Part shown: one piece after another, positions 1,868-58,025 of the stretch
Numbering within the stretch: position 1 is the first letter of the stretch
Layout: the number at the start of each line of letters is the position of its first letter
Assembly (NCBI GenBank): GCA_963082975.1
Contig: OY720350.1
Location: 18,818,910-18,882,909, forward strand
Source of the DNA: Labia minor
Taxonomy: Eukaryota; Arthropoda; Insecta; Dermaptera; Spongiphoridae
Reading direction: 5' to 3'
DNA: 64,000 bases
Notes under the pieces: generated by a model
Told to the model about the DNA's origin: nothing
Seen by the model: only the letters and a program-made list of their open reading frames with translations
The model's database searches: none
Made by a program: the position numbers and the translations under genes

Positions 1868-1875
1868 ATATAAAG

Positions 1876-2183: not shown

Positions 2184-2233
2184 ATATAAAGATATTGAAA
2201 AAATTTAAAAAGTATTTAATTTTTATTTACAAA

Positions 2234-14781: not shown

Positions 14782-14877
14782 AAGCAAAGAAGTATAATAA
14801 GTATAATAAGAACTACAGAGGAATAACAATGTTAAATTGTGACTATAAAATCTTAACGCGAAAAACCAAACATTTGC
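14770..14877 (+). pseudogene. Reverse transcriptase fragment (N-terminal motif)
   Basis: The plus-strand frame reads KNYRGITMLNCDYKILTRKT and then a stop. N-Y-R-G-I-x-x-L-N-x-x-Y-K-I-L is a signature at the start of the reverse-transcriptase domain in non-LTR retrotransposons. Only about 35 residues survive, abutting the truncated HINE-A copy. Confidence 0.7.
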
Positions 14878-22940: not shown

Positions 22941-23184
22941 AAAAAGATAAATATATTTTAAATATTACACCACAATACAAATTATTTCTTATATTTTAAT
23001 AAATTTAAAAATTTACTTTTTGATTGAAAAGTGAACTTGACATATCGTTGTGGGAAATTAAAAATAGATTTAATTTTTTTTTTTATAATACTTAACAGTT
23101 TAATTTGTAATTTGTAATTTTTATTTTTATGTTATTATATTTTTGTTGTTGATGAGCTGTAGAGAATAAGTAAATATTAAATAT

Positions 23185-31034: not shown

Positions 31035-31340
31035 ATGTAAGTGAATCTTTCTGCTATTAAAAAAATAATATAAAATATACGGTTCTTTTTTTTTGAGGAA
31101 ATGATTCTTTCTAAAGCTATTTGTTTTTATTTCCAACATATGATAATTAAAGGAAGTTTCAGTGTCATTTTATGTTCAGTAAAAAGAGATTTTGCAGTCG
31201 TTGCCTGATTTTTAGAAACGTTTAGACATTTTTTATCCAAATTTCAGCCAAGCGAAAAATGATATAAACATGTGTGTTTAGCCTGACTACATTAGAGAAA
31301 TTATTTTATTTCTATATTTATAAAAAAAAGAAAAAATAAG

Positions 31341-31919
31341 CTGGAGTGTCTCCACTCGACTATCTCGCAATTTGAATTGGATTAAATAACATATAATATA
31401 TTATATTTAAATTAAAATTAAATAATTATAAATTATAAATTAAAATTAATAAATAATATTTATTAAATCAGCGCATGTTTGGCTCTTTGTTGATGGCACC
31501 ACGTCACGTGTTGGCGCGTGATTTGCAGGGTTAAAAAATTAATTCTGATTCTTTCAGCGATTCAATCAAGCTGAAATTCTATATATAGCAGTTTTATACA
31601 ATTTTTAATCATGTGAAAAACTATCAAACATATATCTTTATTTTTACGGTCACTTTAGAGGAAAAATAATCAAAACGTGGCAGGTAATGACCCTCTTCCA
31701 GTTGAGCTACATTTCTCAAAAGTGGAGCGAAAACTACAAATTTTTAATAATGTCCATGTACCAAATTTCAAGATTCTAGCTCAAACCATTTTCGCGTAAT
31801 CTTGTCTACATTCAGATATGTTTCCTCTACTGATTCAGGAACCTTCAAAACGTATAAAAACATCAAAATCTCAACATCGAAAATTTTCGTGATCTCAATA
31901 CAATCTCTGGCGAGATAGT
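31341..31919 (-). mobile_element. HINE-A copy A5
   Basis: Full-length minus-strand copy with the 3' hairpin at the left and GCGAGATAGT at the right. The CA tract is lost. About 70 bp beyond its 5' end (31920-31990) are also found beyond copy A8. Confidence 0.87.
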
Positions 31920-33295
31920 AAAAAGCAAGAGAGAAAATATATTATTAATTCATCCTTGATATTCTTCATAAAATCAAAAAAATTATTAATTTATTAAAAA
32001 ACATAGAAATCTAATAGTTTTATTTGCGGAAATAGAAATATGAAAAGGTTCAATCATCATCACTTAATGAATGCTCTTATTTTCTTTTTAAATGTCAAGG
32101 CAAAATAGGAATTGATTTTTCTATTCATAAAGCCTTTTCTTTTTTCCCTTGATATCAAATAAAATCTACGACATAGGAAACCACTCTCCTGTCAAAGAAA
32201 TGAACGCCAACGTCTATATTTTCTTTACTGATGTATATTTTTTTATTATTATTTATTATTATTATTATTTTATTTTATTTTATTTTATTCTTTTTTGATC
32301 CTTGAGCGAAAAATCTCTTTTATTATGGTGGCCAGTGGAGATCGTCTTGTCTTGATACAATCAAATATTTTCAATTTTAAATTTCTCTCCCTATTAAGGT
32401 CCCCCCTTCTTCCTTGACATAATAACAAGCGAACCAATACTTGAAATTAGGTTTGTTATCCGGCCGAATAGAGTCCGATCGGATTTCTTTTACATTACAG
32501 AGGGTTAAAAAAAAAGAATGGAATTTAAAATCTGACAAGGGTGGAGAGAGAGAGCGAGAGAGAGTTTTTAAGGGCAAGTCGACGACTACTAGTGAAGGGT
32601 GGCGTTCACTAAAAAGGGATTCTTTTTTTAACAGCCATCTGGCCACGGATGAATGCGATCTCACCACGCTTGTTGATTTAATTAATCGCCAATTCTATTT
32701 TTTTTTAAGCGCTAAATATCATTGCCGCGTTTTGACAGAATGTCGACTTTGACATCACACCCAAGAACTGTCAAATGGAAACTGTCAAAAGGGGAGATGG
32801 GGATGCGTAAAGTGGCCAAGGACAATCACACTATTAATATATTTCTTGAAAGACCACCAGAATAGAAATTAAATCAATTCTTTCAGGCTAAACAATCGAT
32901 TCATTCCATTAATTCGCATCCATGTGTTCAACCAATCATGAAAATTAAAACTAAAATGTAATTCCTTTCAATCAAAGGATTTGTTGAATACTATTATGTT
33001 AATTTTATACTAAAGTATAATTTTAAAACTATCCATAATAAAAATCTTAGCTATTTATTTTCTGTCATATGTTTTTTGAAATTCTAAATTTCATAAACTT
33101 GGCTAAATTCAAACTCTCAATATCAACATTCAGGATATAATTTATTAAAATTAAAAAAAATATCAATATATGTAGAGTTTTGCCAATAAATCTTATCTTA
33201 TTCTACTAGCAAAAATTATATACTTATATATTTGTATTTTTGAGATATTAAACCGTTCTAAAGATTTTTTTTTAAATTTATAAAGAAAATTCGAT
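31920..33295. other. Intergenic DNA with base-balanced island
   Basis: The first 70 bp duplicate the flank of A8. A (TTTTA)n run is at 32266-32290 and an AG-rich patch at 32540-32570. The stretch 32395-32830 is less AT-rich and has overlapping frames on both strands (96 and 103 codons), neither resembling a known protein. Confidence 0.45.
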
Positions 33296-33952
33296 CTGTA
33301 TTGGTTTCAGCCTCGGGAAAAATCATCTTTGTTAATTTTGTTCTTAATTTAAAATAGGAATCTTTATAATAATAAGTTGACCTGTGGCCAGGCACAGAAC
33401 CGACCGACGATTTGAAATAAATTAATTTCCAGTTACAGATACAATTTCAAATAATTTAAATGTATCTATTAACGCAATAAAAAACAGATATGGACATAAC
33501 AATAATATTTTTAATTTTATTTTATTTATAATATTTAAGAAGGCGCTGGCTGTGACGTCATGAAGGGTTTTAAATTAAGAAAAACTAACGAAGATGATAT
33601 TACCCGAACAATATTTGTGGAGATATGTAAAAAATATCTTCATGTGAAATTTGGTGTGAAAATAAGCCTTCCCTTCCTATCGTCGATTGGTAATACTACC
33701 ACTTTCGGATTCCAGATATATAAAAGTTGATCAATTCATCATACTGATGCATTAATTAAATATACCAAATTTTATCAAAATCGTTCACGCTGTACACGTC
33801 CATATAGGCACACAGACGGACGGACGGACAAATATCATGCTAAAAATACTTTTTTCTGTTAAAAAAATTGCATATTTCGTGGAGATATGTAAAAATCTCC
33901 ACATGTGAAATTTGGTGTAAAAACAATATCTCCCTTACTATCGTCGGTCGGT
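33296..33952 (-). mobile_element. HINE-B copy B3 plus adjoining fragment
   Basis: The main copy 33371-33952 has the hairpin end at the left (AATAAGTTGACCTGTGGCCA) and ACCGACCGACG at the right. A detached 60-bp piece of the same family in the opposite orientation (TATTGGTTTCAGCCTCGG) lies at 33298-33357, outside the terminal hairpin. Confidence 0.83.
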
Positions 33953-34187
33953 AAAAAAAATAACGCCGGGCAACCCCGGACAGCGCTTCCTTAAATACAA
34001 AATATTATAAATAAAATAAAATTAAAAATATGTATTTTAATAATATATTTTGTAATCAAAATTATGAAATATATATTATGTCATATCCACAGGCCATAAT
34101 TTTCTGTCTTTCAGTGTATTAAATACGTACGTTTAAGGGCTGTATGTTTTATGACTATTTTTTTTTATTTATGGTTTATTTAAAAAT

Positions 34188-34437
34188 CTGGAGTGTCTCC
34201 TCTCGACTATCTCGCAAATTTGAATTGGATTAAATAACATATATTAATTTAAATTAAATTCAATTAATTAAATTATAAATTAAAATTAATAAATATTATT
34301 TATTAGACCAACGTATGTTTGGCTCTTTGTTATTGGCACCACGTCACGTGCTGGCGCGTGAGATTTGCAGTGTTGCAATTAATTTTGGTACTTTCAGCGA
34401 TTGAATCAAGCTGAAATTCTATATATAGTAGTTTTAT
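34188..34437 (-). mobile_element. HINE-A copy A6, truncated
   Basis: Only the 3' hairpin end and about 250 bp remain. It stops inside the TATATAGTAGTTTTAT segment, where family C begins. Confidence 0.82.
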
Positions 34438-38632: not shown

Positions 38633-39158
38633 CGAGGTGAAAGTTATAATAAAACATAAAAAGAGATTGTTAATTGTAAATACCTTTATTAGCCTTCAAA
38701 ATACTCTTCATTAGGCACAACACACTTCTTACAACGTTCGTATAACACTTGAAAACTGTTGGAGAAGTCTTGATGTGGAACCGTTCTCAGAATAGCCGTC
38801 ACAACGTTCAGGCCGGCAGTCCACAAGCAGGACACCAGAAAACTCTGAATGTGTACGAGAGATGCTAACAAAAGATCGGCGATTGACTCTGCGACTAATA
38901 GACGAAGAATTGGGTATTAGCAAAGACACAGTAAATAGTGTTTTCTTGTTGATTGCCGGCCTGAACGTTGTGACGGCTATTCTGAGAACGATTCCACATC
39001 AAGACATCTCCAACAGTTTTCAAGCGTTATACGAACGTTGTCAGAAGTATGTTGTAGCTAGTGGAGAGTATTTTGAAGGTTAATAAAGATATTTACAATT
39101 AACATTCTATTTTTATGTTTTTATCATACCATTCACCGAACTTTTTAAACACACCTCG
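38633..39158. mobile_element. Fold-back mariner-derived MITE, copy E1
   Basis: Ends CGAGGTGAAAG (left) and CGAGGTGTGTTTAAAAAG (right, other strand) with TA on both sides. About 200 bp at each side are inverted copies of the same transposase 3' end. The left arm (minus) and right arm (plus) both encode GLNVVTAILRT-PHQD-SNSFQ-LYERC and end in YFEG-stop, the typical mariner C-terminus. The centre (38845-38940, plus) encodes MLTKDRRLTLRLIDEELGIS, the second helix-turn-helix of the DNA-binding domain. The catalytic domain is absent. Confidence 0.85.
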
Positions 39159-39160
39159 TA

Positions 39161-39607
39161 TATATATATATTTATATAAGTATATATATTGGCATTTGTA
39201 TTATTTGAATATTTTAACCATTTAAATATTTAAATGATTCTCTTTATTGACAGTTTAATGTTCTCAATGACACATAATAATTCATTATTTATTTTTAAAA
39301 TTATTAATTGCAAAATAATATATTTTAAATACAAACAATTATTACTTTATATGTATTTATGTGTGTATTAATAAACTTTAATAATTGAGTTCGTAAAAGA
39401 TTAAATAAAGAAATAATAATAATAATTATGTTAGGGTCATGATAACCCCGATTAAAATATTTAAATAATTGAATTTATTATTTAAATAGATTAGTAAGGG
39501 TATCGGGTATCATTGATGGAGGACCTCAGATCAGATTCTTTGTCCTCTTTAAAATCAACTTCAAAATTCAAATAATTATCAATTATGGTAGATTTTTAGA
39601 TATTTTT
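39161..39607. other. AT-rich intergenic DNA
   Basis: (TA)n-like start, otherwise nothing recognisable. Confidence 0.55.
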
Positions 39608-40213
39608 ACCGATCGACTATAGGAAGGGAAGGTATTTTTTCACACAAAATTTCACATGTGGAGATTTTTACATATCTCCACGAATCAAGCAATTTTTTTA
39701 ACAGAAAAAAGTATTTTTAGCATGATGTTTGTCCGTCCGTCCGTATAGATGTGTACAGCTTGAACGGCTCAACGGATTTTGATGAAATTTGGTATATTTA
39801 CTTAATGCATCAGTATGATGAATTGATCAACTTTTGGTGTATATCCGGAAACTGAAAGTGGTATTATTACCGATCAACGATAAGAAGGGAAGGGTTATTT
39901 TCACACCAAATTTCCCATGAGGAGATTTTTTTTACATATCTCCACGAATCATGCACTTTGTATTGGTTTTATCTTCGTGAAAAATCATCTTCATTAGTTT
40001 TTTCTTTAATTTAAAATTATATACGTCACCCAGCCCTTCATGACGTCACAGCCAGGGCCTCCTTATATATTATAAATTAAATTAAATTAAAAATATTTAT
40101 GTTACATCCATATCTGTTTTTTATTGCATTAATAGATACATTTATATTATTTGAAATTGTTTCTGTAGCTGGAAATTAATTTATTTCAAACCATCGTTCG
40201 GTTGTGTCCACAG
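39608..40213 (+). mobile_element. HINE-B copy B4
   Basis: A plus-strand copy: ACCGATCGACTATAGG start (two changes from consensus), a shortened GTCY tract (39728-39744), the subterminal repeat degraded to CATCGTTCGG, then the hairpin remnant CCACAGGTCAACTTATT. The most diverged of the four. Confidence 0.83.
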
Positions 40214-41859
40214 GTCAACTTATTTTCTCTTTATTTAATTTGCGCCCTACATTAAACTTAAAATCAAACATTTATGTATAAAAAACAAATGTACTCGACC
40301 TTAAACTGATAAAGCACAGCGGGATTGACCATACAAACATACATACACTTCACTTGTATTAAATTTGTATTATTTATCATTGTGATTTTTATAAATCAAT
40401 TTTTTTTTTTTTGTAAATAACGTAACCTTTATATGAACAAAATATGACTTTAATTCTATTAATATAAAATATATTAACAAAATTTAAATAAAATTAAAAT
40501 TAAATATTAAGTATTGTATTTTTTTTTTGTTTGGTATTTAATAAATTCATTTTTATGTTATGAATTTATTAATTAAAAGAAGAATTCATTTTTTTTATTT
40601 TCATCATAAATGTTGATCATCTTCCTAACATATATTAATAAATATATTAAAATTATCTGATATATATATATGAGAGGGGAAGAGAGAGCTTTCCTTTTAT
40701 ATCCTATATGAAATTATTAAACCCGTCTATTCTGTAATTCCATGGCCACTTCAGGCTGCTTTTAGAGGTTTTTTAAGTTAAAGACAGAAAAAAAAAATCT
40801 TTTTTTTTTCTCTCTCTCTCTTTTTCTCTATTTTATGATCTCGGGAATAAAATGGAGATCAGAGACGAGAGAAAAAGTTCATCCACTCTAAGATGAATGC
40901 AACGAAACTCCAGAAGGGTGGCTGAAGAGGGGGAGGAAAAGTGATATTTCGAATGATAATAAAAATATAGGAACGTCTACTGGAATTTCACGTTGGTTCG
41001 TTTAAAAATGGATTTCAAGTGAATAATAATAAAAAAATGACGAAATGATGGGAAACGAGAGTCATAAAAAAAAATGAAAACAAAAAAGAAATGATAGATT
41101 TTGTGTTGTCTTTCTATCAATGATAAATATTTAAAATTTACTAGCCAGTCTCTCTGCTTATAAAAACGACAATGTGCTTTCAAGGGATTTAGATAAGTTA
41201 GCAAGAGAAAAACCTATAAAGAATAGAAAAATACAGATAAAAAGAAAAAAGATTATCCAAAAGAGTATGATCGATGTATCTAAAAATGTCAAATAGTAAA
41301 AAGTAATAAATTGTTTTTAGGAAAGTGATTAAAGATTTTGAAAAAAATGACAATTTATTATTATATAAAACAGTTAATTTAAAATTTTATCATATGGCTA
41401 AATATTTTAAAAAAATATTGATCATTCTATTTGACATTTTAATAATTTACTCTAATAGTTTTATTTGTATCATTTATGCAAATAAATTATTAAGATTTCA
41501 CAGATACTTTATAGAAAGTTGAAAAATTCTAAAAAAAAATTTTGAAAATATTTAAAATAAAAAATTGAAGTTGTAACAGATTGATTTCAACCTATTAATT
41601 ATAAATATTATTAATACTATAATCACTTCTAATTATTTAAAAATCTATTTTCTATCCACTGTGTTTTTTTTATTTTTTTTAGCCTTTTCGGAATATATCT
41701 CCATTTAGCCAGCTTTCTCAGAATTGTTTATTATTTTTTTTATTTATATTTTAAATATCGATGCACTCAGCGAGGTTCGATCCCTCGAACTCTAGTCGAC
41801 TGTGTTTTTTTTAATCTATTAAAATAATCATGAATTATACAGTTTACAGGGCATAGCAT
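40214..41859. other. AT-rich intergenic DNA
   Basis: AG-rich low complexity at 40660-41120; no gene seen. A 17-bp T-arm-like hairpin CGAGGTTCGATCCCTCG is at 41771-41787 without the rest of a tRNA. Confidence 0.5.
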
Positions 41860-42373
41860 TCATTCTATGCCAATGGAATATTCACCAATAGATTTCAAGA
41901 AACTTTTTCAAATAAAAAAATTTTACCTTTTTTTTTAATTGAAAAAATTTTGAAAAAAATTCGGAAATGTCCTAAATGTTTAAAAAAACGGGACAATAAG
42001 CTGTCTCGAAGACATTTTTCGGGACGCCGGGACAGAGCATCTAAAAACGGCACAATCCTGGAAAAACGGGACGTTTGCTCACCCTATTTATAGGTTACGA
42101 AATAAATTAAATTAAATTTAAATTATAGTATTAAATATTAATCCAATCGAATTTCATTTCTACTTCATTGAAGTAATAAGCATAAACAGCTTTAAAAATA
42201 TTGAATACAATTGGCAGAAAAAAATAATTTAAATACAAATTTGGGGAATATATATATATATATATTACTTTTTGCCAATACACCACTCTTTGGTTCGGTT
42301 CTAGACTTAACAAGTTCACACTTGTCCTTGAACAACTAATCACACACAACTACTGCTTAGATTAAAGTTCGGG
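41860..42373. repeat. Outer degenerate inverted repeat, left arm
   Basis: Segments of this arm match the reverse complement of 49207-49640 in the same order: ATTCACCAA...AAGAAACTTTTTCAAATAAA, ATAGGTTACGAAATAAA, AATACAA...TATATTACTTT, ACTTGTCCTTGAAC and ACTACTGCTTA-ATTAAAGTTCG. The left arm has an extra 150 bp at about 41930-42080 (CGGGAC motifs). It appears to be the remains of an older palindromic element into which the big fold-back element was inserted. Confidence 0.65.
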
Positions 42374-42380
42374 CCGCTTG

Positions 42381-42724
42381 CATGTGCGTGAAGTTAGCAC
42401 CGCCATTTTATAATTCCAGAAAAAACGCAATTGTGCTAGGTTGTGCTAAGTTTGTGCTACGTTGTGCCGCAAACGCCAGTCACCCATCTCAAAAAACAAA
42501 CCGGAAAATCAAAAAAAACCGGTTTTTTTGCTGGCACCGCCATTTTGTTTTTCCAAAAAAACAAAAATTGTGCTGGATACTATCTTGGCTACTAAACATT
42601 GTGCCGCAAACAGAACAACTCTGGCTCTTTCCGTTTAGGAGAAAAAAAATATCAAAATTTAATATTATAAGACATAGTATTAAACCTCTTATAATTTTTT
42701 CAGAGAGAGAGATAAACAAATTCT
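42381..42724 (+). repeat. Fold-back element, left unique terminus
   Basis: It carries a phased run of TTGTGCT motifs (42430-42466), a GTTGTGCCGCAAACG-type segment twice, and a purine/pyrimidine AGAGAGAGA tract near 42704. The 118-codon frame that starts at 42382 reappears identically in the other arm and is read through repeat DNA; I do not regard it as a gene. Confidence 0.88.
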
Positions 42725-45700
42725 GCGAGTTGTGCTAAGTTGTGCTGGTTGAATACAACAAAGTATCATTCATTAATAAAATAAAAATTGCGTAGCTTGC
42801 CAAAAAAATGGCAAAAAGTCACGTAGCAAAAACTGAAATTTTACATTTTTGAATTTTCGAAAGTTGTGCTGAATTGTGCTAGTCGAGCACAACAACTTTC
42901 CCTAATGGCACAATTTCGTCAGATCAAAACTGTCCATGGTACAGCCCGAAATAGATTTTGGTTTGCCCGCTAATCATTATTTCGATCTTTAATTGCATTT
43001 TAATCTCGAACTATTACAGAAATCCAAATTCTGCGAGTTGTGCTAAGTTGTGCTGGTTGAATACAACAAAGTATCATTCATTAATAAAATAAAAATTGCG
43101 TAGCTTGCCAAAAAAATGGCAAAAAGTCACGTAGCAAAAACTGAAATTTTACATTTTTGAATTTTCGAAAGTTGTGCTGAATTGTGCTAGTCGAGCACAA
43201 CAACTTTCCTTAATGGCACAATTTCGTTAGATCAAAACTGTCCATGGTACAGCCCAAAATAGATTTTGGCTTGCCCTCTAATCATTATTTCGATCTTTAA
43301 TTGCATTTTAATCTCGAACCGTTACAGAAATTCAAATTTTGCGAGTTGTGCTAAGTTGTGCTGGTTGAATACAACAAAGTATCATTCATTAATAAAATAA
43401 AAAGTGCATAGCCTGTGAAAAAAATGGCAAAAAGTCACGTAGCAAAAACTGAAATTTTACATTTTTGAATTTTCGAAAGTTGTGCTGAATTGTGCTAGTC
43501 GAGCACAACAACTTTCCCTAATGGCACAATTTCGTCAGATCAAAACTGTCCATGGTACAGCCCGAAATAGATTTTGGTTTGCCCGCTAATCATTATTTCG
43601 ATCTTTAATTGCATTTTAATCTCGAACTATTACAGAAATCCAAATTCTGCGAGTTGTGCTAAGTTGTGCTGGTTGAATACAACAAAGTATCATTCATTAA
43701 TAAAATAAAAAGTGCATAGCCTGTGAAAAAAATGGCAAAAAGTCACGTAGCAAAAACTGAAATTTTACATTTTTGAATTTTCGAAAGTTGTGCTGAATTG
43801 TGCTAGTCGAGCACAACAACTTTCCCTAATGGCACAATTTCGTCAGATCAAACCTGTCCATGGTACAGCCCAAAATAGATTTTGGTTTGCCCGCTAATCA
43901 TTATTTCGATCTTTAATTGCATTTTAATCTCGAACTATTACAGAAATCCAAATTCTGCGAGTTGTGCTAAGTTGTGCTGGTTGAATACAACAAATTATCA
44001 TTCATTAATAAAATAAAAAGTGCATAGCCTGTGAAAAAAATGGCAAAAAGTCACGTAGCAAAAACTGAAATTTTACATTTTTGAATTTTCGAAAGTTGTG
44101 CTGAATTGTGCTAGTCGAGCACAACAACTTTCCCTAATGGCACAATTTCGTCAGATCAAACCTGTCCATGGTACAGCCCAAAATAGATTTTGGTTTGCCC
44201 GCTAATCATTATTTCGATCTTTAATTGCATTTTAATCTCGAACTATTACAGAAATCCAAATTCTGCGAGTTGTGCTAAGTTGTGCTGGTTGAATACAACA
44301 AAGTATCATTCATTAATAAAATAAAAATTGCGTAGCTTGCCAAAAAAATGGCAAAAAGTCACGTAGCAAAAACTGAAATTTTACATTTTTGAATTTTCGA
44401 AAGTTGTGCTGAATTGTGCTAGTCGAGCACAACAACTTTCCCTAATGGCACAATTTCGTCAGATCAAAACTGTCCATGGTACAGCCCGAAATAGATTTTG
44501 GTTTGCCCGCTAATCATTATTTCGATCTTTAATTGCATTTTAATCTCGAACTATTACAGAAATCCAAATTCTGCGAGTTGTGCTAAGTTGTGCTGGTTGA
44601 ATACAACAAAGTATCATTCATTAATAAAATAAAAAGTGCATAGCCTGTGAAAAAAATGGCAAAAAGTCACGTAGCAAAAACTGAAATTTTACATTTTTGA
44701 ATTTTCGAAAGTTGTGCTGAATTGTGCTAGTCGAGCACAACAACTTTCCCTAATGGCACAATTTCGTCAGATCAAACCTGTCCATGGTACAGCCCAAAAT
44801 AGATTTTGGTTTGCCCGCTAATCATTATTTCGATCTTTAATTGCATTTTAATCTCGAACTATTACAGAAATCCAAATTCTGCGAGTTGTGCTAAGTTGTG
44901 CTGGTTGAATACAACAAATTATCATTCATTAATAAAATAAAAAGTGCATAGCCTGTGAAAAAAATGGCAAAAAGTCACGTAGCAAAAACTGAAATTTTAC
45001 ATTTTTGAATTTTCGAAAGTTGTGCTGAATTGTGCTAGTCGAGCACAACAACTTTCCCTAATGGCACAATTTCGTCAGATCAAACCTGTCCATGGTACAG
45101 CCCAAAATAGATTTTGGTTTGCCCGCTAATCATTATTTCGATCTTTAATTGCATTTTAATCTCGAACTATTACAGAAATCCAAATTCTGCGAGTTGTGCT
45201 AAGTTGTGCTGGTTGAATACAACAAAGTATCATTCATTAATAAAATAAAAATTGCGTAGCTTGCCAAAAAAATGGCAAAAAGTCACGTAGCAAAAACTGA
45301 AATTTTACATTTTTGAATTTTCGAAAGTTGTGCTGAATTGTGCTAGTCGAGCACAACAACTTTCCCTAATGGCACAATTTCGTCAGATCAAAACTGTCCA
45401 TGGTACAGCCCGAAATAGATTTTGGTTTGCCCGCTAATCATTATTTCGATCTTTAATTGCATTTTAATCTCGAACCGTTACAGGAATTCAAATTACGCGA
45501 GTTGTGCTAAGTTGTGCTGGTTGAATACAACAAAGTATCATTCATTAATAAAATAAAAATTGCGTAGCTTGCCAAAAAAATGGCAAAAAGTCACGTAGCA
45601 AAAACTGAAATTTTACATTTTTGAATTTTCGAAAGTTGTGCTGAATTGTGCTAGTCGAGCACAACAACTTTCCCTAATGGCACAATTTCGTCAGATCAAA

Positions 45701-46094
45701 ACTGTCCATGGTACAGCCCGAAATAGATTTTGGTTTGCCCGCTAATCATTATTTCGATCTTTAATTGCATTTTAATCTCGAACCGTTACAGGAATTCAAA
45801 TTACGCGAGTTGTGCTAAGTTGTGCTGGTTGAATACAACAAAGTATCATTCATTAATAAAATAAAAATTGCGTAGCTTGCCAAAAAAATGGCAAAAAGTC
45901 ACGTAGCAAAAACTGAAATTTTACATTTTTCAATTTTCGAAAGTTGTGCTGAATTGTGCTAGTCGAGTTCAACAACTTTCCTTAATGGCACAATTTCGTT
46001 AGATCAAAACTCTCCATGGTACAGCCCAAAATAGCTTTAGGTTTGCTCGCTAATCATTATTTCGATCTTTAATTGCATGCATCTCTCGAACTAT
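42725..46094 (+). repeat. Tandem array of 308-bp units, left arm (about 10.9 units)
   Basis: The anchor GCGAGTTGTGCTAAG occurs at 42725, 43033, 43341, 43649, 43957, 44265, 44573, 44881, 45189, 45497 and 45805, always exactly 308 bp apart. Units fall into type a (ATTGCGTAGCTTGCC), type b (AGTGCATAGCCTGTG) and b' (b plus AAATTATCATTC). The order is a a b b b' a b b' a a a. The last unit is diverged and stops at about 46094. Confidence 0.95.
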
Positions 46095-46903
46095 ATAATA
46101 TAATTATATAAATTAAATATTTTTAAAACAAAAAAATATGAATGATTTTATGTATTATTATTTTAATCAATTATGATTGAATTTGGGTTCCAAGCCAACC
46201 ACTCAGGAATACAATAACTAATAGTTTATTGGAATTTAAGATGACGAATTTCCATATAATAAAGTGGTTCGAAAGATCATTTAATCACCACTATACTAAT
46301 CGACCAGAAACTAATAATATTCTATTGAAATAGTTTTAGAATCTAAATGTAATACTTCTGACATTATTATTATTTTATTGAGTTTTCTTTAATTATTATT
46401 ATTTTTATTATTATTATAATTCTTATGTTACTATAATATATATGTTAGGAAGTTAGGAAATAACATATTATGATTAATTATTATGTAATTCACAAATTTG
46501 ATTTTACATAAATTTTTGGATAAATTTGTATATTATAAATTTAATATTTTATTTTTATTTGTTTTATCTTCTATTATGTTTTATAATAAAATTTAAAAAT
46601 GGAATATATTCCTTTTGAATCTGATTATTTAATAATGCTTTAAAAAATTATCAGTAAGAAGTTCACTCTATATCTATAAAAATAAAAGCATGTAAGTATA
46701 AGAATTTATATTTATATGAGAAATTGCAATGAAATTTCATTGAGGATTGTTTATAATGAGGTGTAATTTTAAACTGTAAATTGAAATAAAAAATCAAAAA
46801 ATTGGGACCGAATTTTTTACGTAAGTATACTTTATATTTATAAAATATAAACAAAAAAATTTATATTATATATATGAATGGTTAATAATGGTTTATGGGC
46901 CTA
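46095..46903. other. Fold-back element, central AT-rich spacer
   Basis: No transposase, no THAP domain and no frame above about 63 codons was recognised. Its sequence is not seen elsewhere in the window. Confidence 0.7.
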
Positions 46904-46945
46904 TCATGTGTGTTAAGCTAGCACCGCCATTTTATAATTACCCAA
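46904..46945 (+). repeat. Internal extra copy of the element terminus
   Basis: CATGTGTGTTAAGCTAGCAC followed by CGCCATTTTATAATTACC matches the outer terminus (CATGTGCGTGAAGTTAGCAC...) with few changes, in the orientation of a left end, directly before the inverted array. Confidence 0.8.
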
Positions 46946-48706
46946 AAATTACAGTTTTTCAGTTTTTGATCTGACGAAATTATGCAATTAGGGAAAGTGT
47001 TGTGCTCGACTAGCACAACTCAGCACAACTTTCGAAAATTCAAAAATGTAAATTTCAGTTTTTCCTACATTACATTTTGCCATTTTTTTGGCAAGCTACG
47101 CAATTTTTATTTTATTAATGAATGATACTTTGTTGTATTCAACCAGTACAACTTAGCACAACTCGCAGAATTTGGATTTCTGTAATAGTTCGAGATTAAA
47201 ATGCAATTAAAGATCGAAATAATGATTAGCGGGCAAACGTAAAGATATTTTGGGCTGTACCATGGACAGTTTTGATCTAACGAAATTGTGCCATTAAGGA
47301 AAGTTGTTGTGCTCGACTAGCACAATTCAGCACAACTTTCGAAAATTCAAAAATGTAAAATTTCAGTTTTTGCTACGTGACTTTTTGCCATTTTTTTGGC
47401 AAGCTACGCAATTTTTATTTTATTAATGAATGATACTTTGTTGTATTCAACCAGCACAACTTAGCACAACTCGCAGAATTTGGATTTCTGTAATGGTTCG
47501 AGATTAAAATTCAATTAAAGATCGAAATAATGATTACCGGGCAAACCAAAATCTATTTTGGGCTCTACCATGGACAGTTTTGATCTCACGAAAATGTGTC
47601 ATTAGGGAAAGTTGTTATGCTCGACTAGCACAATTCAGCACAACTTTCGAAAATTCAAAAATGTAAAATTTCAGTTTTTGCTACGTGACTTTTTGCCATT
47701 TTTTTGGCAAGCTACGCAATTTTTATTTTATTAATGAATGATACTTTGTTGTATTCAACCAGTACAACTTAGCACAACTCGCAGAATTTGGATTTCTGTA
47801 ATAGTTCGAGATTAAAATGCAATTAAAGATCGAAATAATGATTAGCGGGCAAACGTAAAGATATTTTGGGCTGTACCATGGACAGTTTTGATCTAACGAA
47901 ATTGTGCCATTAAGGAAAGTTGTTGTGCACGACTAGCACAATTCAGCACAACTTTCGAAAATTCAAAAATGTAAAATTTCAGTTTTTGCTACGTGACTTT
48001 TTGCCATTTTTTTGGCAAGCTACGCAATTTTTATTTTATTAATGAATGATACTTTGTTGTATTCAACCAGCACAACTTAGCACAACTCGCAGAATTTGGA
48101 TTTCTGTAATGGTTCGAGATTAAAATTCAATTAAAGATCGAAATAATGATTACCGGGCAAACCAAAATCTATTTTGGGCTCTACCATGGACAGTTTTGAT
48201 CTCACGAAAATGTGCCATTAGGGAAAGTTGTTATGCTCGACTAGCACAATTCAGCACAACTTTCGAAAATTCAAAAATGTAAACTTTCAGTTTTTGCTAC
48301 GTGACTTTTTGCCATTTTTTTGGGAAGCTACGCAATTTTTATTTTATTAATGAATGATACTTTGTTGTATTCAACCAGTACAACTTAGCACAACTCGCAG
48401 AATTTGGATTTCTGTAATAGTTCGAGATTAAAATGCAATTAAAGATCGAAATAATGATTAGCGGGCAAACCAAAATCTATTTCGGGCTGTACCATGGACA
48501 GTTTTGATCTGACGAAATTGTGCCATTAGGGAAAGTTGTTGTGCTCGACTAGCACAATTCAGCACAACTTTCGAAAATTCAAAAATGTAAAATTTCAGTT
48601 TTTGCTACGTGACTTTTTGCCATTTTTTTGGCAAGCTACGCAATTTTTATTTTATTAATGAATGATACTTTGTTGTATTCAACCAGCACAACTTAGCACA
48701 ACTCGC
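46946..48706 (-). repeat. Tandem array of 308-bp units, right arm (about 5.7 units)
   Basis: Inverted relative to the left array. The anchor complement CTCGC occurs at 47162, 47470, 47778, 48086, 48394 and 48702, each 308 bp apart. Units alternate between type p (GGCAAACGTAAAGATATTTT) and q (ACCGGGCAAACCAAAATC) as p q p q, then one unit like the left array next to the terminus. Confidence 0.95.
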
Positions 48707-49050
48707 AGAATTTGTTTATCTCTCTCTCTGAAAAAATTATAAGAGGTTTAATACTATGTCTTATAATATTAAATTTTGATATTTTTTTTCTCCTAAACGG
48801 AAAGAGCCAGAGTTGTTCTGTTTGCGGCACAATGTTTAGTAGCCAAGATAGTATCCAGCACAATTTTTGTTTTTTTGGAAAAACAAAATGGCGGTGCCAG
48901 CAAAAAAACCGGTTTTTTTTGATTTTCCGGTTTGTTTTTTGAGATGGGTGACTGGCGTTTGCGGCACAACGTAGCACAAACTTAGCACAACCTAGCACAA
49001 TTGCGTTTTTTCTGGAATTATAAAATGGCGGTGCTAACTTCACGCACATG
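48707..49050 (-). repeat. Fold-back element, right unique terminus
   Basis: Inverted, practically identical copy of 42381-42724. Ends CACGCACATG before the CCGCTTG duplication. Confidence 0.88.
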
Positions 49051-49206
49051 CCGCTTGCAGTCCATCATAGGAGGCAAATTATTTAATTTTAATTAATTAA
49101 AAAATCTTTATAGAGGACGCAGCTGATAGATGTTCTAGACCTGCAGCTAGATGAAGTCGTGACGTCATACTATGTGCTTCTTGTGTCAGTTTTACGATCG
49201 GCTGCA

Positions 49207-49640
49207 AAAGGCTTCGAACTTTAATTTAATGTAAGCAGTAGTTATGTGAAATAAATCGTTCAAGGACAAGTCTAAACTTGTTATGTCTAAAGTAATATAT
49301 ATTGTGTATATTTGTATTAAGATTAGTTTGTTTTTTTTCCATTTGAAAAAAAAATATTTTAAATATAAAATTTACGCCAATTGTGGTCATTTTTTTAAGC
49401 TGTTTGTATTATTACATCAATGGATTAAAAAATGGATTAAAAGTAAAGGTTTGATTTGATATTTAATTCTAAAATTTATATAATTTTTATTTCGTAACCT
49501 ATATTATAGAAAAATCTTACAATTTTTTTTATTTGAAAAAGTTTCTTGGAATTGTAAAAGAGGAATCTCTTGGTGAATATTTCATTGACATTAATTAGCA
49601 AATAAATTAATACATTGAAACAATCATGATGTGATGGTTT
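49207..49640. repeat. Outer degenerate inverted repeat, right arm
   Basis: Reverse-complement partner of 41860-42373. The 146 bp between this arm and the fold-back element (49061-49206, containing GTCGTGACGTCATACTATG) would be the old loop of the host palindrome. Confidence 0.62.
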
Positions 49641-50726
49641 GTATTTAAAAATCAAATGATTAAACAAACAAAATATTATATAATTATTATATTATTACTA
49701 TATTAAAAAGAATAGAAAACATATAAATATTAATTAATTAGTTAGTTGCATTGTCATGGATTTGTAAAAACTTTAACACTGTTAACTTTGTTAATTCCAA
49801 AGAAATTTTCCTTATGCAATTTTTCAGGGTCGCTTCTAGTTTACGGGATAAAAATTATTAAAATTTGCATATAAATCCATTGATATTCTATTTAGGTTTT
49901 ATTAATTTGACCAGCAGAAAGCTCCACTAATTTTCTGATATTCGAATTATATAAAATTAAAGAAATAATTAATTAAATAATTTCCCTATATCCAATCGGA
50001 ACCGAAAAAAACGAAAATTAGTCAATAATTAGTGATTAATCAATAAAATATTACTTAATGGCTGCACATTTCGACGTTCATCACGAGCTAATCTGTCAAA
50101 CTTAAACAATCTGTATTTATCTCGTAAATTACAAGAGACCGAGAAATATTGAATAAGGAAAGTTTCTTTGGAATTAAATAAGGAATCCACTAGTTTCATC
50201 CAAATCCATGACATGACAACTAATCTGAACAATTACCAATATTGTAATTAGAGATTATTATTAAAATAATTTTAATTACCTAGTAAATCTCAGAGTTAAC
50301 CATCTTGGTGGGTGTCTTGTCTTATTCACTGAGAAATGCAAACTAAAGAAATTATTTTAATTTTTTTAATCTATGAATAGGCCAAGTGGCTTATCATTTT
50401 TCAATGGAAAGAAAGGCACTCGAATTGTTCTAGTGATGCCCAAATTACATGTATTTTTTTATTATTTGTTAATATTTTCATCGCAATTATAAAAATAAAA
50501 TAAAAATATTTTAAAAAGAATATTTATCTAATATTTTAAACGAATTAATTATATTTTAATTATATATATTTTCTAAGAATTAATTATTAATTTATTTACT
50601 AAATATGTTAGTTAAATATTTTATTTATATTTACTATAAAAGAGGTAAAAAAGTATGTATTTTAAATATTTCAAGTTTGAGAAAAATAAATTGTACTTAA
50701 AACTAATATATATTTTGATAAATATG
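49641..50726. other. AT-rich intergenic DNA
   Basis: Nothing recognisable. Confidence 0.55.
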
Positions 50727-51275
50727 CTGGAGTGTCTCCTCTCGACTATCTCGCAATTTGAATTGGATTAATTAACATATATTATATTTAAATTAAATTT
50801 AATTAATTATAAATTATAAATTAAAATTAATAAATAATAATTATTAAACCAGCGCGTGTTTGGCTCTTGGTTGATGGCACCACGTCACGTGCTGGCGCGT
50901 GATTTGTAGTGTTAAAAAATTAATTCCGGTACTTTCAACGATTCAATCAATGTGCAAAACTATCAAACCTATATCTTTATTTTTACGGTCATTTTAGAAG
51001 AAAAAAAATCAAAACGTGGTAGGTAATCACCCAATTCCGGATGAGCTACATTTCTCAAAAGTTGATTTAAAATTACAAATTTCAATAATGCCCATGTACC
51101 AAATTTCATTATTCTAGCTCAAACCGTTTTTGCGTAATCTTGTCTACATACACACATACAGACATTTTTCTCAACCTTAGTGAAAATGATACAAGGACCT
51201 TCAAAACGTATAAAAATATCAAAATCTCGACATCGAAAATTTTCCTGATCTCAATACTACCTCTGGAGAGATATT
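50727..51275 (-). mobile_element. HINE-A copy A7
   Basis: 3' hairpin at the left (TGGAGTGTCTCCTCTCGA); the 5' end is degraded to GAGAGATATT. It shares with A9 a deletion in the middle (CAATCAATGTGCAAAACTA), which defines a subfamily. Confidence 0.83.
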
Positions 51276-51769
51276 AAAAATATTTTAACAAAATATTTAT
51301 AACTAATATTATGAAATTTATTCAACTATTTTTTTTTTTTTTTATTTTTTTTTTATTTTAATATGATATATACATTTTTTAATATTATTAATAATGTTTT
51401 CACTGAATTTATTATACATCTTTAAATTAACCTCATCATCACAACGAATCTTTTTTTTTAATAATTTTAATGCATACATTTATTCATTTTGTTTCCTTAA
51501 AAGCCTCTCCTAAACTTATTACTTCTCAATTTTTTTTATTTATTTTCCTACCATTAAACAAACTTAGTCTTTTGAATTAAATAAAATCCTAATTCTCGAG
51601 TAAACTTTCCATCATGCAAATTAATTCACTACCCTTAATGGTGTAACTTTGTTTAATTTTATTATTGAACTTTGTGAATATGTCTACTGGTTTTTTTTTT
51701 TTTTTTAATTTTAAATTTACAAAAAAAGAATATTGTTAGAAAATATAGTTATATATATATATATATATA
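51276..51769. other. AT-rich, T-homopolymer-rich DNA
   Basis: Long poly-T runs; no gene seen. Confidence 0.55.
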
Positions 51770-52325
51770 CTAGGTGTGTATAAAAAGTTCGGAGAATGGT
51801 TTGATAAAAACATAAAAAGAGAATGTTAATTGTAAATACCTTTATTAGCCTTCATAATACTCTCCACTTGCCATATGACACTTCTGACAACGTTCGTATA
51901 ACGCTTGAAAACCGTTGTAGAAGTCTTGATGTGGAATCGTTCTCAGAATAGCCGTCACAACGTTCAGGCCGGCAATCCACAAGCAGGACACCAGAAAACT
52001 CTGAACGTGTACGAGAGTTGCTAACAAAAGATCGGCGATTGACTCTGCGACTAATAGCCGAAGAATTGGGTATTAGCAAAGACACAGTAAGTAGTATTTT
52101 CTGGTGTCCTGCTTGTGGATTGCCGGCCTGAACGTTGTGACGGCTATTCTGAGAACGAATCCACATCAAGACTTCTCCAACAGTTTTCAAGCGTTATACG
52201 AACGTTGTCAGAAGTGTGTTGTAGCTAATGGAGAGTATTTTGAAGGTTAATAAATTTATTTACAATTAACATTCTCTTTTTATGTTTTTATTATACCATT
52301 CACCGAACTTTTTAGACACACCTCG
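51770..52325. mobile_element. Fold-back mariner-derived MITE, copy E2
   Basis: Same plan as 38633-39158. TA flanks, ends close to CGAGGTGTGT-AAAAAGTTCG, and both arms are inverted copies of the mariner 3' end (AGLNVVTAILRTIPHQDF, ending YYEG on the minus strand at the left, YFEG on the plus strand at the right). The central helix-turn-helix segment LTKDRRLTLRLIAEELGIS is at about 52020-52085 (plus). It keeps a longer central duplication (TTTTCTGGTGTCCTGCTTG, 52098) than E1. Confidence 0.85.
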
Positions 52326-52366
<41 letters not shown>

Positions 52367-52463: not shown

Positions 52464-54241
52464 GTTAAGAATGAGTTTTGTCTTGACATCAGTTCCGCAA
52501 TTCGCCAATAGAAATTTCAAGCCCAATTAGTTAAGATGAGTTTGATTTTATGATTATGTGTTTTGGTCATATTTCCCTATGGTGAACGCAATGAAATAAA
52601 AATTGATTGACACGGTTTCCTGTCGAAAGTGAATTTTGTGGAGATGAGTAAATGTGCCTGGTCTGCCACCCTCCTAAGGAAAGCCATTTGATATAAAAAA
52701 AAAGTAATATCTCTATTGATATATATAACCGAAAAATCTAAGTCATCTCGTCGACTCTAAAAGCTGTTGGTAATTTGTTTGATAGGGATAGAAAATGGTC
52801 TACGACAAAATCGAGCGAAAGTGGTTCGAACACGAGACATTTTCATTGAGTTTATTTATTTAAGATTGGAAAACAATTTGGGGTCAAATATAAATATGTA
52901 TAATATATAAACACAATACAAAACCTATAGTTCTAGTATTTTATCATACTTGATTTTCATTGATAATCTGATAATAAAAATATTCTTGTTTATACAAATC
53001 ATATAAATATAACTTAAATTAAATATGGTTTCAAAATCTTATGAAAAAGGTTTCTATCAAATTCAAGAATAATGTAAAATCATTTACTAAAAAATTTTAG
53101 AATTTGTTAATACAAAATATATAACTTCGGGAGAAGATGGCACTACAGAAGCGGTCTTACGGTCTTTAAACTATCCCACATTATTCTCACACCATTCTTC
53201 CAAAAATAAAATAAAAACATCTGGGAATGCGCAAGCTTGCATTGCCAAAACTTAACTTAACTTAAGTTCGGATTAATTTAAGTTATAAATAAGTTAAGAT
53301 TAAATATAAATATTATTGAATAAAATTATTTATTTTAAATTTTTATAAATACATTTTCGATACACTATTCGAATCTGAAATCAGAATTTAAAATTTCGCA
53401 TTTTTAAATATTAAAAATTTCAACTTTGGACGCCATTTTGACCATGTTCCCGAGGGGGTATCAAAAAATGAAAGGCACTTTACATTACTACTTTTCGATG
53501 CTCTTTCCGAATCTGAAGTCAGAATTTCAAAATTTTGAGTTTGATGTCGGACAGAACGACAGAACGACAGACTGAACGATTTTATAAACTCACTTAAGTT
53601 CGTTGAAAAGGCAAGATAATAATTCTAATGATATTATTTCAATAAAATTAAATGCGACGCACATATGATATATTATATATTTGAGTGTTGTCAAAAAGTT
53701 GAAAATCACTATAATTTTGAAATTCATTCATGAAAGATTTCTCAGTATATTCCACGAATATGAGAAACTGTTGACATTGGAGATTTCGTAGGAGTGAAGG
53801 GTGACCATGACACATCATACTATAAAAATGAATACCATAAATTTGTTTTTAATTAAATTAAATTTGAAATTTTAATATGTTCTGAAATTCTGCAACTTAT
53901 CAATTAAGAATTAAGGTATTAATTTAAGAATAAATTATTGATTTAATTTTTATCATTAATTAATTTTCATTAATTAATTATTTTAATTAATACTAAGTTT
54001 AATTTATTCAAATTGTAAATAGAGTCTATTAGGTTTTTTTTAGTAGTGGATGTATTTCTAAAATTTAAAATAAATGTCTCTCGATAAATTATAAAATTAA
54101 TATAATAGAGAAACTATAGAAAATCCTATGGTGTCCAATTTTAACGGTTTTAATAAACTTTTTGTTATTGTAAAGTTGGCAAATTCATATTGTATCTATT
54201 CAAAATTTAATAATTTTTTATTAAGATACAATAAAAAAAAG
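52326..54241. other. Intergenic DNA with simple repeats and a TE relic
   Basis: (TA)n at 52330-52359 and (TTA)n at 52430-52463. 53340-53600 has two diverged copies of TTCGATnCnCTnTnCGAATC followed by a short GAACGACA repeat (53555-53580), reminiscent of HINE interiors, but no ends can be set. No gene. Confidence 0.45.
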
Positions 54242-54819
54242 CTGGAGTGTCTCCACTTGACTATCTCGCAATTTGAATTGGATTAATTATAACATATATT
54301 ATATTTAAATTAAATATCATTAATTAAATTATAAATTAAAAATAATAAATAATATTTAAAAAACCAGCGCATGTTTGGCTCTTTGTTGATGGTACCGTCA
54401 CGTGTTGGCGCGTGATTTGCAATGTTGCAATTAATTCTGGTACTTTCTGGTACTTTCAGCGATTCAATCAAGCTGAAATTCTATATATAGCAGTTTTATA
54501 CAATTTTTAATCATGTCAAAAACTATCAAACATATATCTTTATTTTTACGGTCAATTTAGAGGAAAAAAAATCAAAACGTGGCAGGTAATGACCCTCTTC
54601 CAGTTGAGCTACATTTCTCAAAAGTGGATCGAAAACTACAAATTTTTAATAATGTCCATGTACCAAATTTCAAGATTCTAGCTCAAACCATTTTCGCGTA
54701 ATCTTGTCTACACTCAGATATTTTTCCCCAACTGATTCAGGAACCTTCAAAACGTATAATAACATCAAAATCTCAACATCGAAAATACAATCTCGCAATA
54801 CAATCTCTGGCGAGATAGT
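54242..54819 (-). mobile_element. HINE-A copy A8
   Basis: Full-length copy closely similar to A5, including about 70 bp outside its 5' end (54820-54892), identical to the A5 flank. Confidence 0.87.
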
Positions 54820-54893
54820 AAAAAGCAAGAGAGAAAATATATTATTAATTCATCCTTGATATTCTTCATAAAATCAAAAAAATTATTAATTAA

Positions 54894-55332
54894 ACCAGCG
54901 CGTGTTTGGCTCTTGGTTGATGGCACCACGTCACGTGCTGGCGCGTGATTTGTAATGTTAAAAAATTAATTCCGGTACTTTCAACGATTCAATCAATGTG
55001 CAAAACTATCAAACATATATCTTTATTTTTACGGTCACTTTAGAGGAAAAAAAATCAAAACGTGGTATGTAATGACTCTTTCGGTTGAGCTACATTTCTC
55101 AAAAGTTGATAGAAACTACAAATTTTGAATAATGCCCGTATACCAAATTTCATGAATCTAGTTCAAACATTTTTGCGTAATCTTGTCTACATACACACAC
55201 ACGCACACACACAGACAGACATTTTTCTCAACCTTAGTGAAAATGATTCATGAACCTTGAAAACGTGTAAAAACATCAAAATCTCGACATCGAAAATTTT
55301 CATGATCGCAATACTATCTCTTGCGAGATAGT
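54894..55332 (-). mobile_element. HINE-A copy A9, 3'-truncated
   Basis: It begins inside the element at TAAACCAGCGCGTG (the 3' hairpin is missing), has a CA tract (55190-55213) and an intact 5' end TTGCGAGATAGT. Same subfamily deletion as A7. Confidence 0.84.
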
Positions 55333-58025
55333 AAAAATTGGAAATATCATATTATTTGATTTTATTCAATTACTAAAAGAATGTTAAATAATAATATATA
55401 TAATAAAAAATAAATAAGTAACTTTATTTTAAAAATTGGGGCAAATATTTATATAACACCTATCCAAAATGTAACTTTTTCTCTTGTTTTGAAAAATAAA
55501 TTATAAAATAGTTATTTTTATTCATTAAAAGAAATTTTACTAAATTTAAAAAAAAAATGAAATAAAAAATGATTGGAAGGAGAGTGAGAGTGAATCAAAA
55601 ATATAAATAAAAAAAACGAGAGTTGGCAAACCATAACAAACCCTTCTGCTATATTTTCATCTGCTAATAAAAATAAAACTAGTAAAATTTTACAGTCCCT
55701 TTTGTAATTTTTTCCCTTCCTTCTATAATATATATATATATATATTAGAAATAATAAAAGGCAGAATCCGATTGCATTATTTCCCTGTTAAAGTGAATTG
55801 AGGGTGGCTGGCAACATCATCGTTGTTCCCCTTACCGTTGACAATTGAGGGTGGATGCGATGCCTTGATCGCCGGATGACGTAAAGCTGTCACGTGGCCC
55901 AAGTAAATCAGGGGCGCAACCCATTTGATCTTATTGCATGGTGAAGGCAAACCGTCACTAGTTGAGTGACGTCGGTGAAACCATCCTGGGGCAGGAATCG
56001 CCAGACTACATTTCTACCCACTCTCCCTATTTCTTACTATTATGGAGTGGAAATATACATAAAATATAAATAATACCTATCTATTTTTTTCATTTCATTT
56101 TATTTTTATTCATAAAAATATGCACTTTCATTGAATGTCATGAATATTAAATATAAATAAAAAAAAATTAAAATATTATATGAAAAAATTAATAACTATA
56201 TTATTTAATATTAATGAAAGAAAAAAAATAAACTTTTTACTCTTAAAAACATTAAAAATTAATTTTAAAAAGTATTTAAATAAGAAATCTTTATTTTATT
56301 AATTAAATTTTATTTATATTGACTAATGCAAATAGTAATAAAATTTACATAAAATAAAATATATATATTTTATATATTTATGGATTTATACAAAGTTATT
56401 TTCCATTAAAAATTATTTAATATTCATTATTTTAAAATCTTAATAATAATATATATAATAATAATACTATTATTTAGATACCTCTAGATATATGTACGTT
56501 TAGATTTCTGTGAAAGTTTTCATTATGTAAAGTTATTTCCGGATTTCTTTCATATTTTATTGTGAGATTTGTATATTGACTTTACGCCATCCATTTCCAA
56601 TATAATTTTTTTAGGAGGGAATTTTTGGTTTCCTGGGCCTTTGTATGTAGTGTCAGTGTTGGGATTTTGGGTTGAGTGCGTGGATAATTTTTGACTTACT
56701 TCGTTCTGAAGCTCTGAAGAATCGCCTGCCCTAGCACACTGGCACTAAAACATGTCTGGCTCGTACTTCTGTCCGAGGCTAAAAAAAAAATATTCCAAAT
56801 TTGGGTGGCGAAAGGTCGAAATCTCACAATATAAAACGTGGAAATAACTTTTCAAATTTATACAAATGTCATACATTTTCAAATTTGCATTTTTTTTTTT
56901 TTTTTATAAATTTAATCCATATATTTAATATGTTTAAATACAATTTTCGTTTTGTTTATGGAACTATAATAAAATATTTAATAATTAACCTTAGAGAATT
57001 AAATAATTTTTTTATTGAAATTTGAAATACAAATTTTAAGTTCATATATGCACACTTAATATAATATTATATATATATTATAATATATAGTTCATCTACA
57101 GAGAAGGAATAATAAATTTAAAAAAAAATGTAAAACAAATTTATCATCTAGAGATCTCTTACAAGTGGATGAATATTATCCATTCATTTATTAAACAAAT
57201 AAAGAGATCTTTTTTATTTATATATCACAAAATCTATACCAATAAAATATGTATTTCACTACCATCATCTACATACAATTCATTTGTAAAAAAGATGAAA
57301 TGCAATTTTTTTCCATTCATTTTTTTATTTTATTATATATATACACGATATTCGTTTGAATATTAAAAAAATGCATCCAACTGGTGTGAGAAACGATGAT
57401 CGATTAAAAATATGTCAACCAATGAAAATGAGACAGGAAACATGAATATTAAAAAAAAAAATATATCGGTTAATAAATATTTTTTTTTCTGTATATCAGA
57501 CTTGAAATTTGAATAGATGATGGATGGAAGTATAATTGATGTAATGCAAAAGTCAATAAATCAAAAAAAAAAAAAATGGAGATTTTTTCGATTTAACCAA
57601 TTTAAATGAAAGATACTAGAATTAAAAATAAAATGTTTGTTTTAAATTTTATTTTAAATATAAGAGGATTAAAAATAATTTTGATGAAAATAAATACATT
57701 CAAATAGATATGAATGAATGATATGAAATATGATGGTGGAGTATTTTTGTACAAGGTTTTTTTTTCTTTGAACAATAAAAATAGTCGAACCAGAACCAAA
57801 ATATCCCAAAAAGGTTTGTCTTAAATAAGAATTTTATTCAGCGGTTTTTGCAAGTAAAAAAATAATAATAATAAAATAATTTTTTTTATATATATATAAA
57901 TAGAAAAACAAAAGTTAAAATCTTTTTAATTTTTTTAAAATTTAATTTGACAAATGTATGAAATTGTTTCATAATTAATTCTTTATATATTTATATATAA
58001 AATTCAACTCAAATAATTAATACTA
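55333..58025. other. Intergenic DNA with two base-balanced islands
   Basis: Mostly A/T runs. 55790-56030 (GGCTGGCAACATCATCG ... GTGACGTCGGTGAAACC) and 56590-56790 stand out in composition, match nothing else in the window and lack open frames with recognisable similarity. They are candidates for conserved non-coding DNA. Confidence 0.4.

Follow-up and report, generated by a model that had tools for sequence, protein, structure and literature searches.

A probably non-autonomous foldback transposon family with satellite-like inverted arms and 9-bp target-site duplications in Labia minor

Introduction

What kind of transposon is built of two long inverted arrays of satellite-like repeats, how has it spread, and which transposase moves it? 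These questions are raised by a sequence of 6,668 bp within the window, by which we mean the whole stretch of 64,000 nucleotides analysed here (Labia minor, Dermaptera, Spongiphoridae; assembly GCA_963082975.1, contig OY720350.1, positions 18,818,910 to 18,882,909). A sequence-only reading of this stretch had proposed a giant fold-back transposon with satellite-like arms and had placed it next to Galileo of Drosophila. By structure, the sequence is indeed a foldback-type DNA transposon, with long inverted tandem-repeat arms around a small middle domain, and the same arms and ends recur across copies. It belongs to a real transposon family, represented by dozens of copies in one genome, and its kind is already known. 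We regard it as very probable that this is a young, repeatedly inserted and non-autonomous foldback family which leaves 9-bp target-site duplications and is likely moved in trans by a transposase of Mutator-like elements (MULEs).

Element boundaries and target-site duplication

In the window copy alone, target-site duplications of 5, 7 and 9 bp can all be read. The boundary is ambiguous for a single copy because target and terminus have bases in common. The genome containing the window (604 Mb, 71 contigs) was therefore searched with the terminus. All copies behind the 40 scored terminus matches were fetched, and the resulting 28 copies together with the window copy give 29, all of which were counted. 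Copy ends had to align from terminus base 1, and 29 of 29 did so. All 29 begin with ATGTGCGTGAAG. An exact 9-bp direct repeat is found immediately outside ATGTGCG...CGCACAT in 28 of these 29 full copies, and the 28 duplications are all distinct from one another. The only copy without a perfect duplication, L021, was counted as a miss; its flanks read gattttgtg and gatttatgtg and are one inserted base apart. No sign of a chromosomal rearrangement is seen among the 29 copies. Six further copies were fetched that had been found via the arm unit and not via the terminus. Three of the three readable at both ends have 9 bp, while the other three extended past the fetched stretch and were left unscored.

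The boundary common to the 29 copies places the element (no strand assigned) at 42382-49049. It is flanked by the 9-mer GCCGCTTGC on the left (42373-42381) and on the right (49050-49058). The 6.67-kb element of the sequence-only reading is thus a real transposon, with its ends one base further in than had been proposed. Of the suggested duplication of 7 to 9 bp, written as CCGCTTG, the 7-bp version falls and the 9-bp version stands: the other copies decide for 9 bp, two bases beyond CCGCTTG.

Genome-wide copies and evidence of movement

The terminus search returned 287 first-look candidates, and the 40 matches that were scored are all 99-100% identical. The first 34 bases of the terminus match the genome 255 times when up to 2 mismatches are allowed, a count that takes in inner termini, compared with 0 for a reversed control. 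Very roughly, this number points to some 80 to 130 copies. One hundred exact matches of these 255 were listed; they sit on contigs C1, C2, C4, C5 and C6. Among them, 82 combine into 41 pairs that face each other within 10 kb, no pair stands in any other arrangement, and 18 have no partner in the list. The facing pairs, among these exact termini, are 1,101 to 8,510 bp long. The copies can be strikingly alike: L022 and L023, at distant sites on contig C5, differ by 1 mismatch in 4,825 bp, and L010 and L011 by 10 differences in 5,436 bp. The recent mobility that had been suggested for the element is borne out by such near-identical distant copies and by the many distinct 9-bp duplications, which are also the independent duplications at other copies that the sequence-only reading had proposed to look for.

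Empty sites were sought in the window and in the fetched loci by joining the flanks of each copy after removal of the element and one 9-mer. For 6 of the 29 copies an uninterrupted relative aligns with the joined flanks right through the joint, and 29 of 30 empty-site alignments are gap-free there. The empty sites of four of these six copies (L011, L023, L031 and L035) stand within the window. Empty sites had been anticipated with a single CCGCTTG; they do exist, with one 9-mer each in place of CCGCTTG, and they lie in paralogous repeats. The window copy itself has landed in an inverted repeat (42089-49503) that is older and diverged, with arms of about 300 bp and outer ends TATAGGTTACG. The left arm of this repeat, which is the target, covers 42089-42381 (forward strand) and resumes past the insert at 49059-49069. 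The other arm, at 49193-49503 (reverse strand), represents the paralogous empty site, with GCCTTTTGCAGC against GCCGCTTGCAGT. The alignment of the window flanks through the joint reaches a local score of 139, compared with a maximum of 41 in 300 shuffles.

Terminal domains and tandem-repeat arms

The left terminal domain (42382-42724, forward strand, 343 bp) contains a GCACCGCCATTTT...TTGTGCT block twice, the two copies having diverged; this internal repeat scores 74, while 500 shuffles reach at most 45. The right terminal domain (48707-49049, reverse strand) is identical to it. The near-identity of the termini, previously given as 344 bp, extends further, as both element ends are identical over 670 bp. 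Beyond these outer 670 bp the arms diverge, with 67 of 2,093 aligned columns differing in total. Perfect identity is therefore a property of the outer part only and not of the whole arms. An open frame of 125 aa lies in the terminal domain. A homologue search gave 2 candidates, neither of them at E up to 1; the frame is taken as a chance occurrence, and coding arms were rejected.

Tandem repeats of a 308-bp unit are detected at 42717-46078 (10.9 copies) and, in inverse orientation, at 46964-48714 (5.7 copies). Divided into units, the left array (42727-46088, forward strand) holds 11 units of 308 bp, the last one partial, of types ABCDDADDEEF. The right array (46964-48706, reverse strand) holds 6 units, the inner one partial, of types AGHIHJ from the outside inward. 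The arms are thus inverted and keep a constant period of 308 bp, as the sequence-only reading had it; the units are not exact repeats: among full units 0 to 17 bases differ, and the two partial units at the edges diverge more strongly. Across copies, the arms contain 1 to 15 units each.

Close copies differ by blocks of whole units. For unit typing, units with at most one difference were assigned to the same type, and 17 of the 29 copies, in four groups, were typed. Typing stops at a broken unit, which leaves L014 undercounted (1 and 3 vs 3 and 3). The left array reads ABCDDADDEEF in the window copy and ABCDDEF in L010 and L011, and the middle domain is identical in all three. In another group, L034 reads ABCDEFGJ, L033 ABCDCDEFGJ and L031 ABCDEFGHFIGHFGJ; the opposite arm reads AKLMN in L030, L031, L033 and L036 and AOMN in L034. 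Within groups, 32 of 34 arms retain the first unit (the right arm of L021 and the left arm of L030 do not), and 31 of 34 retain the last unit of their side (the left arms of L027, L036 and L037 do not). L022 and L023 are separated by 1 base in 4,825, yet copies with an identical middle domain are four units apart; the tempo of array growth relative to point mutation is therefore directly readable in this family.

In 13 of 29 copies, no difference separates the left from the right terminal domain over 341 bp; shuffling leads one to expect 4.1 such copies, and the highest count in 5,000 shuffles was 12. We infer that this excess reflects sequence exchange between the two arms, or the copying of one end onto the other.

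Within the element the motif TTGTGCT is found 86 times, in terminus and units alike, compared with a single occurrence in the rest of the window (outside 42301-49300). Terminus and unit further have four 11-base words in common, the longest word length tested, one of them being GTTGTGCTAAG. The tandem repeats of Galileo are described as holding additional sites for the THAP domain (PMC3688188). By analogy, each added 308-bp unit would bring further transposase sites. Once the helper is known, it becomes possible to test whether the repeated motif serves as such a site.

Middle domain and inner terminus

The middle domain, M (46089-46904, no strand assigned), has 18% G+C and a longest open frame of 65 aa. 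It is one sequence in 27 of the 29 copies and is lacking in L017 and L018. Over the 811 bp compared it is identical in L010 and L011. Its size is 811-827 bp in 15 copies and 395 bp in a shorter form found in 10; in L019 and L024 it is enlarged by insertions. In L024 the insertion is a repeat that is also dispersed in the window, and the same is seen in L038 and L039. In these three copies the insert of about 610 bp lies near M position 555-560, and L038 is 97% identical to L024; the insert is likely a subfamily marker.

With 7,413 bp and a long middle, L019 was a candidate for an autonomous partner. It was rejected: at 1405-5536 of this copy a long terminal repeat (LTR) retrotransposon is nested in M, with identical 579-bp direct repeats at 1405-1983 and 4958-5536 and an 893-aa frame carrying gag, protease and zinc-knuckle domains, and not a transposase of the foldback family.

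Between M and one arm, an inner copy of the terminus facing outward is found in 27 of 29 copies, the other two being those without M. In the window copy it covers 46905-46948 (forward strand), faces the right arm and has its end motif from 46906. It corresponds to the first 34 to 43 terminus bases and is preceded by GTTTATGGGCCTATC in 27 of 27 copies. Compared with the outer terminus over 34 bases, with mismatches counted by eye, the inner terminus shows 1 mismatch in 12 copies, 2 in another 12, and 3 in the window copy, L010 and L011.

Source of the transposase

Among the 29 copies no transposase frame was found, intron-split genes not having been looked for; the longest open frame measures 81 to 137 aa in 28 of 29. 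As far as its copies were read, the family is non-autonomous. In our explanation the family would be served by a helper made elsewhere, and mobilisation in trans by a Mutator-type transposase is likely. The duplication of 9 bp, seen in 28 of 29 copies, falls within the range of 8-11 bp given for MULEs (PMC6446971), and 17 hits to MULE transposase domains, in open frames spanning 429 to 1,137 aa, were obtained in the genome. The link to Mutator rests on duplication length and general structure; the decisive feature, a MULE transposase encoded between these ends, was not found in the 29 copies read.

The one MULE locus that was read, L044, carries an open 489-aa transposase frame at its positions 1165-2631, with a PF10551 match at E 9.6e-12. 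The score and frame length of L044 are those of five genome hits, which suggests a separate family with recent activity. L044 was considered as a helper bearing the termini of the foldback family and was dismissed, because the 4,001 bp read hold no such terminus.

In the proposed mechanism, a transposase made elsewhere would recognise the outer terminus (ATGTGCGTGAAGTTAGCACCGCC...) and probably also TTGTGCT repeated in terminus and units. It would cut and insert with its breaks 9 bp apart on the two strands. Longer arrays and homogenised ends could then result from recombination, or from slippage during repair, within and between the inverted arms, and the extra units may supply more binding sites, as shown for the Galileo tandem repeats.

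Several observations weigh against parts of this explanation. No transposase was found between these ends in the 29 copies, and the one MULE locus discussed above lacks the terminus. For the 11 of 17 MULE hits comparable with the listed exact termini, none lies within 297 kb of one, the nearest being 298 kb away; the comparison covered the 100 listed exact termini, out of 255, and the MULE hits on contigs that carry them, the other six hits lying on other contigs. The element termini begin with ATG; most arthropod MULEs are described as having a conserved G/C in the first three bases (PMC13359780). With regard to the evidence of movement, all empty sites are paralogous relatives and not alleles, and the alignment of L011 with the window is gapped at the joint; L011 aligned with the repeat beside L036 shows the joint without a gap. 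Shared descent of the copies also adds to the excess of identical ends.

Alternative explanations

The same foldback could be served by a transposase outside the MULEs that also gives 9 bp, such as Rehavkus (if this is a separate group), Merlin or an undescribed group. Merlin makes 8-9-bp duplications. For Rehavkus, 9-bp duplications, arthropod and annelid hosts and a minisatellite before the 3' terminus are reported (PMC6446971), and Rehavkus-1_TC has a 164-bp satellite in its inverted termini (PMC10218199). The ATG termini, unlike those of most arthropod MULEs (PMC13359780), and the distance of the compared MULE hits from the listed termini fit such a helper as well. We consider it unlikely, as there is no direct evidence for such a transposase here, although none was searched for; no copy read encodes any transposase, and no genome search for the PHD-finger form of Rehavkus was made. 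Kinship with Galileo, that is, a lineage-specific relative within the P superfamily with 7-bp duplications and a THAP-domain transposase, could be derived from the window alone, where CATG ends with a 7-bp CCGCTTG are readable. Galileo arms are also long and contain tandem repeats, with up to 4,246 and 4,680 bp and repeats of about 140 bp in D. willistoni (PMC4168063). However, 28 of 29 copies show 9-bp duplications and a boundary shifted inward by one base, the Galileo target motif GTANTAC occurs in 0 of 29 (duplication plus 3 bp on each side), and the 29 copies contain no transposase frame. The long copy with a THAP P-type transposase that this kinship had led to expect is not among the copies read; the genome was not searched for P-type transposases. 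We conclude that duplication length and target motif contradict a place in the P superfamily, so that the kinship proposed by the sequence-only reading has become highly improbable. Where element ends and target have bases in common, a single copy is not enough to determine the length of the duplication, and with the correction from 7 bp to 9 bp the likely superfamily changes. Finally, long inverted near-identical arms are generally hard to assemble, and the locus might stem from faulty assembly, or from a satellite array having undergone a simple segmental duplication in inverted orientation. With like arms and ends at 29 places in different flanks, an exact 9-bp duplication at 28 of them, and empty sites, the probability of this is negligible.

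The preferred explanation, a non-autonomous foldback likely moved by a MULE transposase, is compatible with a particular origin. Two elements with short termini may have become fused head to head, with the DNA between them turning into M and the outermost ends moving the composite. The outward-facing inner terminus at one arm in 27 of 29 copies, with 1-3 mismatches over 34 bases, would be accounted for in this way, and the last nine bases of GTTTATGGGCCTATC could be the old duplication of the inner terminus. On the other side, exact GTTTATGGGCCTATC followed by a base other than A occurs nowhere in the assembly (1 match for the reversed control), the donor locus was not found, and there is no solo arm element among the copies read. 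We therefore put this origin forward tentatively. The fuller version, in which the composite is caught at its origin as two Mutator-like elements fused around captured DNA, keeps the buried end as a fossil and was then amplified, its arms growing by block duplication, seems doubtful to us. If it were true, a single genome would preserve, in a dated series, the steps by which a transposon end becomes satellite DNA.

Comparison with known systems

The closest kinds are the Mutator-linked foldbacks FB4, Tetris, Rehavkus-1_TC and Tm1. Tetris of Drosophila virilis and D. americana is described as a non-autonomous foldback for which no autonomous partner is known, with an outer flanking domain followed by tandem repeats of about 220 bp and a non-coding middle domain; its duplications are 8-10 bp, and near-identical copies vary in repeat number by duplication (PMC4079207). 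In contrast to the up to 15 units per arm and 32 complete copies found here, Tetris is given with three copies of complete structure and arms that do not exceed 1,735 bp, and the sections consulted make no mention of an inner terminus (PMC4079207). The likeness is one of described structure. Tetris is also the foldback element that has been shown to feed a satellite (PMC4079207).

Rehavkus-1_TC of Tribolium castaneum is 9.5 kb long, and its inverted termini contain satellite units of 164 bp, with 5 and 8 as the usual numbers per array (PMC10218199); Rehavkus makes 9-bp duplications as observed here (PMC6446971). The difference is that Rehavkus encodes a transposase with a PHD finger (PMC6446971, PMC10218199), whereas no copy read here encodes one.

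FB4, or Foldback, of D. melanogaster has long inverted ends and duplications of 9 to 10 bp, and the unknown transposase that moves it is thought to be of MULE type (PMC8277862). From FB4 the present family differs in unit length and sequence. The repeats of FB are short.

Tm1 of Meloidogyne, assigned to the Mutator/Foldback family, has composite ends, variable tandem repeats and mostly 9-bp duplications. It differs in that its units measure about 14 bp, its end motifs are asymmetric and copies bearing a transposase are known (PMC3169594). Galileo shares the foldback-like arms and tandem repeats with further transposase binding sites but belongs to the P superfamily, with a THAP transposase, 7- or 8-bp duplications and the target consensus GTANTAC (PMC4168063, PMC3573991, PMC3688188).

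Other repeats and remnants in the window

A dispersed repeat of about 620 bp occurs at eight places in the window with about 80-92% likeness, at 9426-10049, 11081-11695, 14200-14782, 15686-16332, 31317-31991, 34181-34437, 50719-51281 and 54217-55338. This repeat is the insertion target of L023 and L035, and the window therefore holds their empty sites. A second dispersed repeat, with a TGTCCGTCCGTC run, is located at 17263-18019, 22265-23001, 33365-33957 and 39601-40228; one of its relatives is the insertion target of L011, and another is the M insert of L024, L038 and L039.

No RNA family matches the window at gathering score. In viral contigs, a 23-base terminus pattern has 0 matches; a 16-base unit pattern has one (L001), which is taken as chance with a word so short.

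At 28564-29561 lies an element of 998 bp with 384-bp inverted arms that are 98% identical and with direct repeats inside; by eye, its ends show no clear target duplication. What we take to be piggyBac-like remnants are found at 26454-27292, where the second frame matches zf-Tnp_2 (PF13842, E 2.5e-09) and the first matches no family. The window presumably also contains pieces of long interspersed nuclear element (LINE)-like sequence, and we assume the stretches at 38636-39189 and 51730-52365 to be mariner-like remnants. The latter is a near-palindrome, 85% identical to its own complement.

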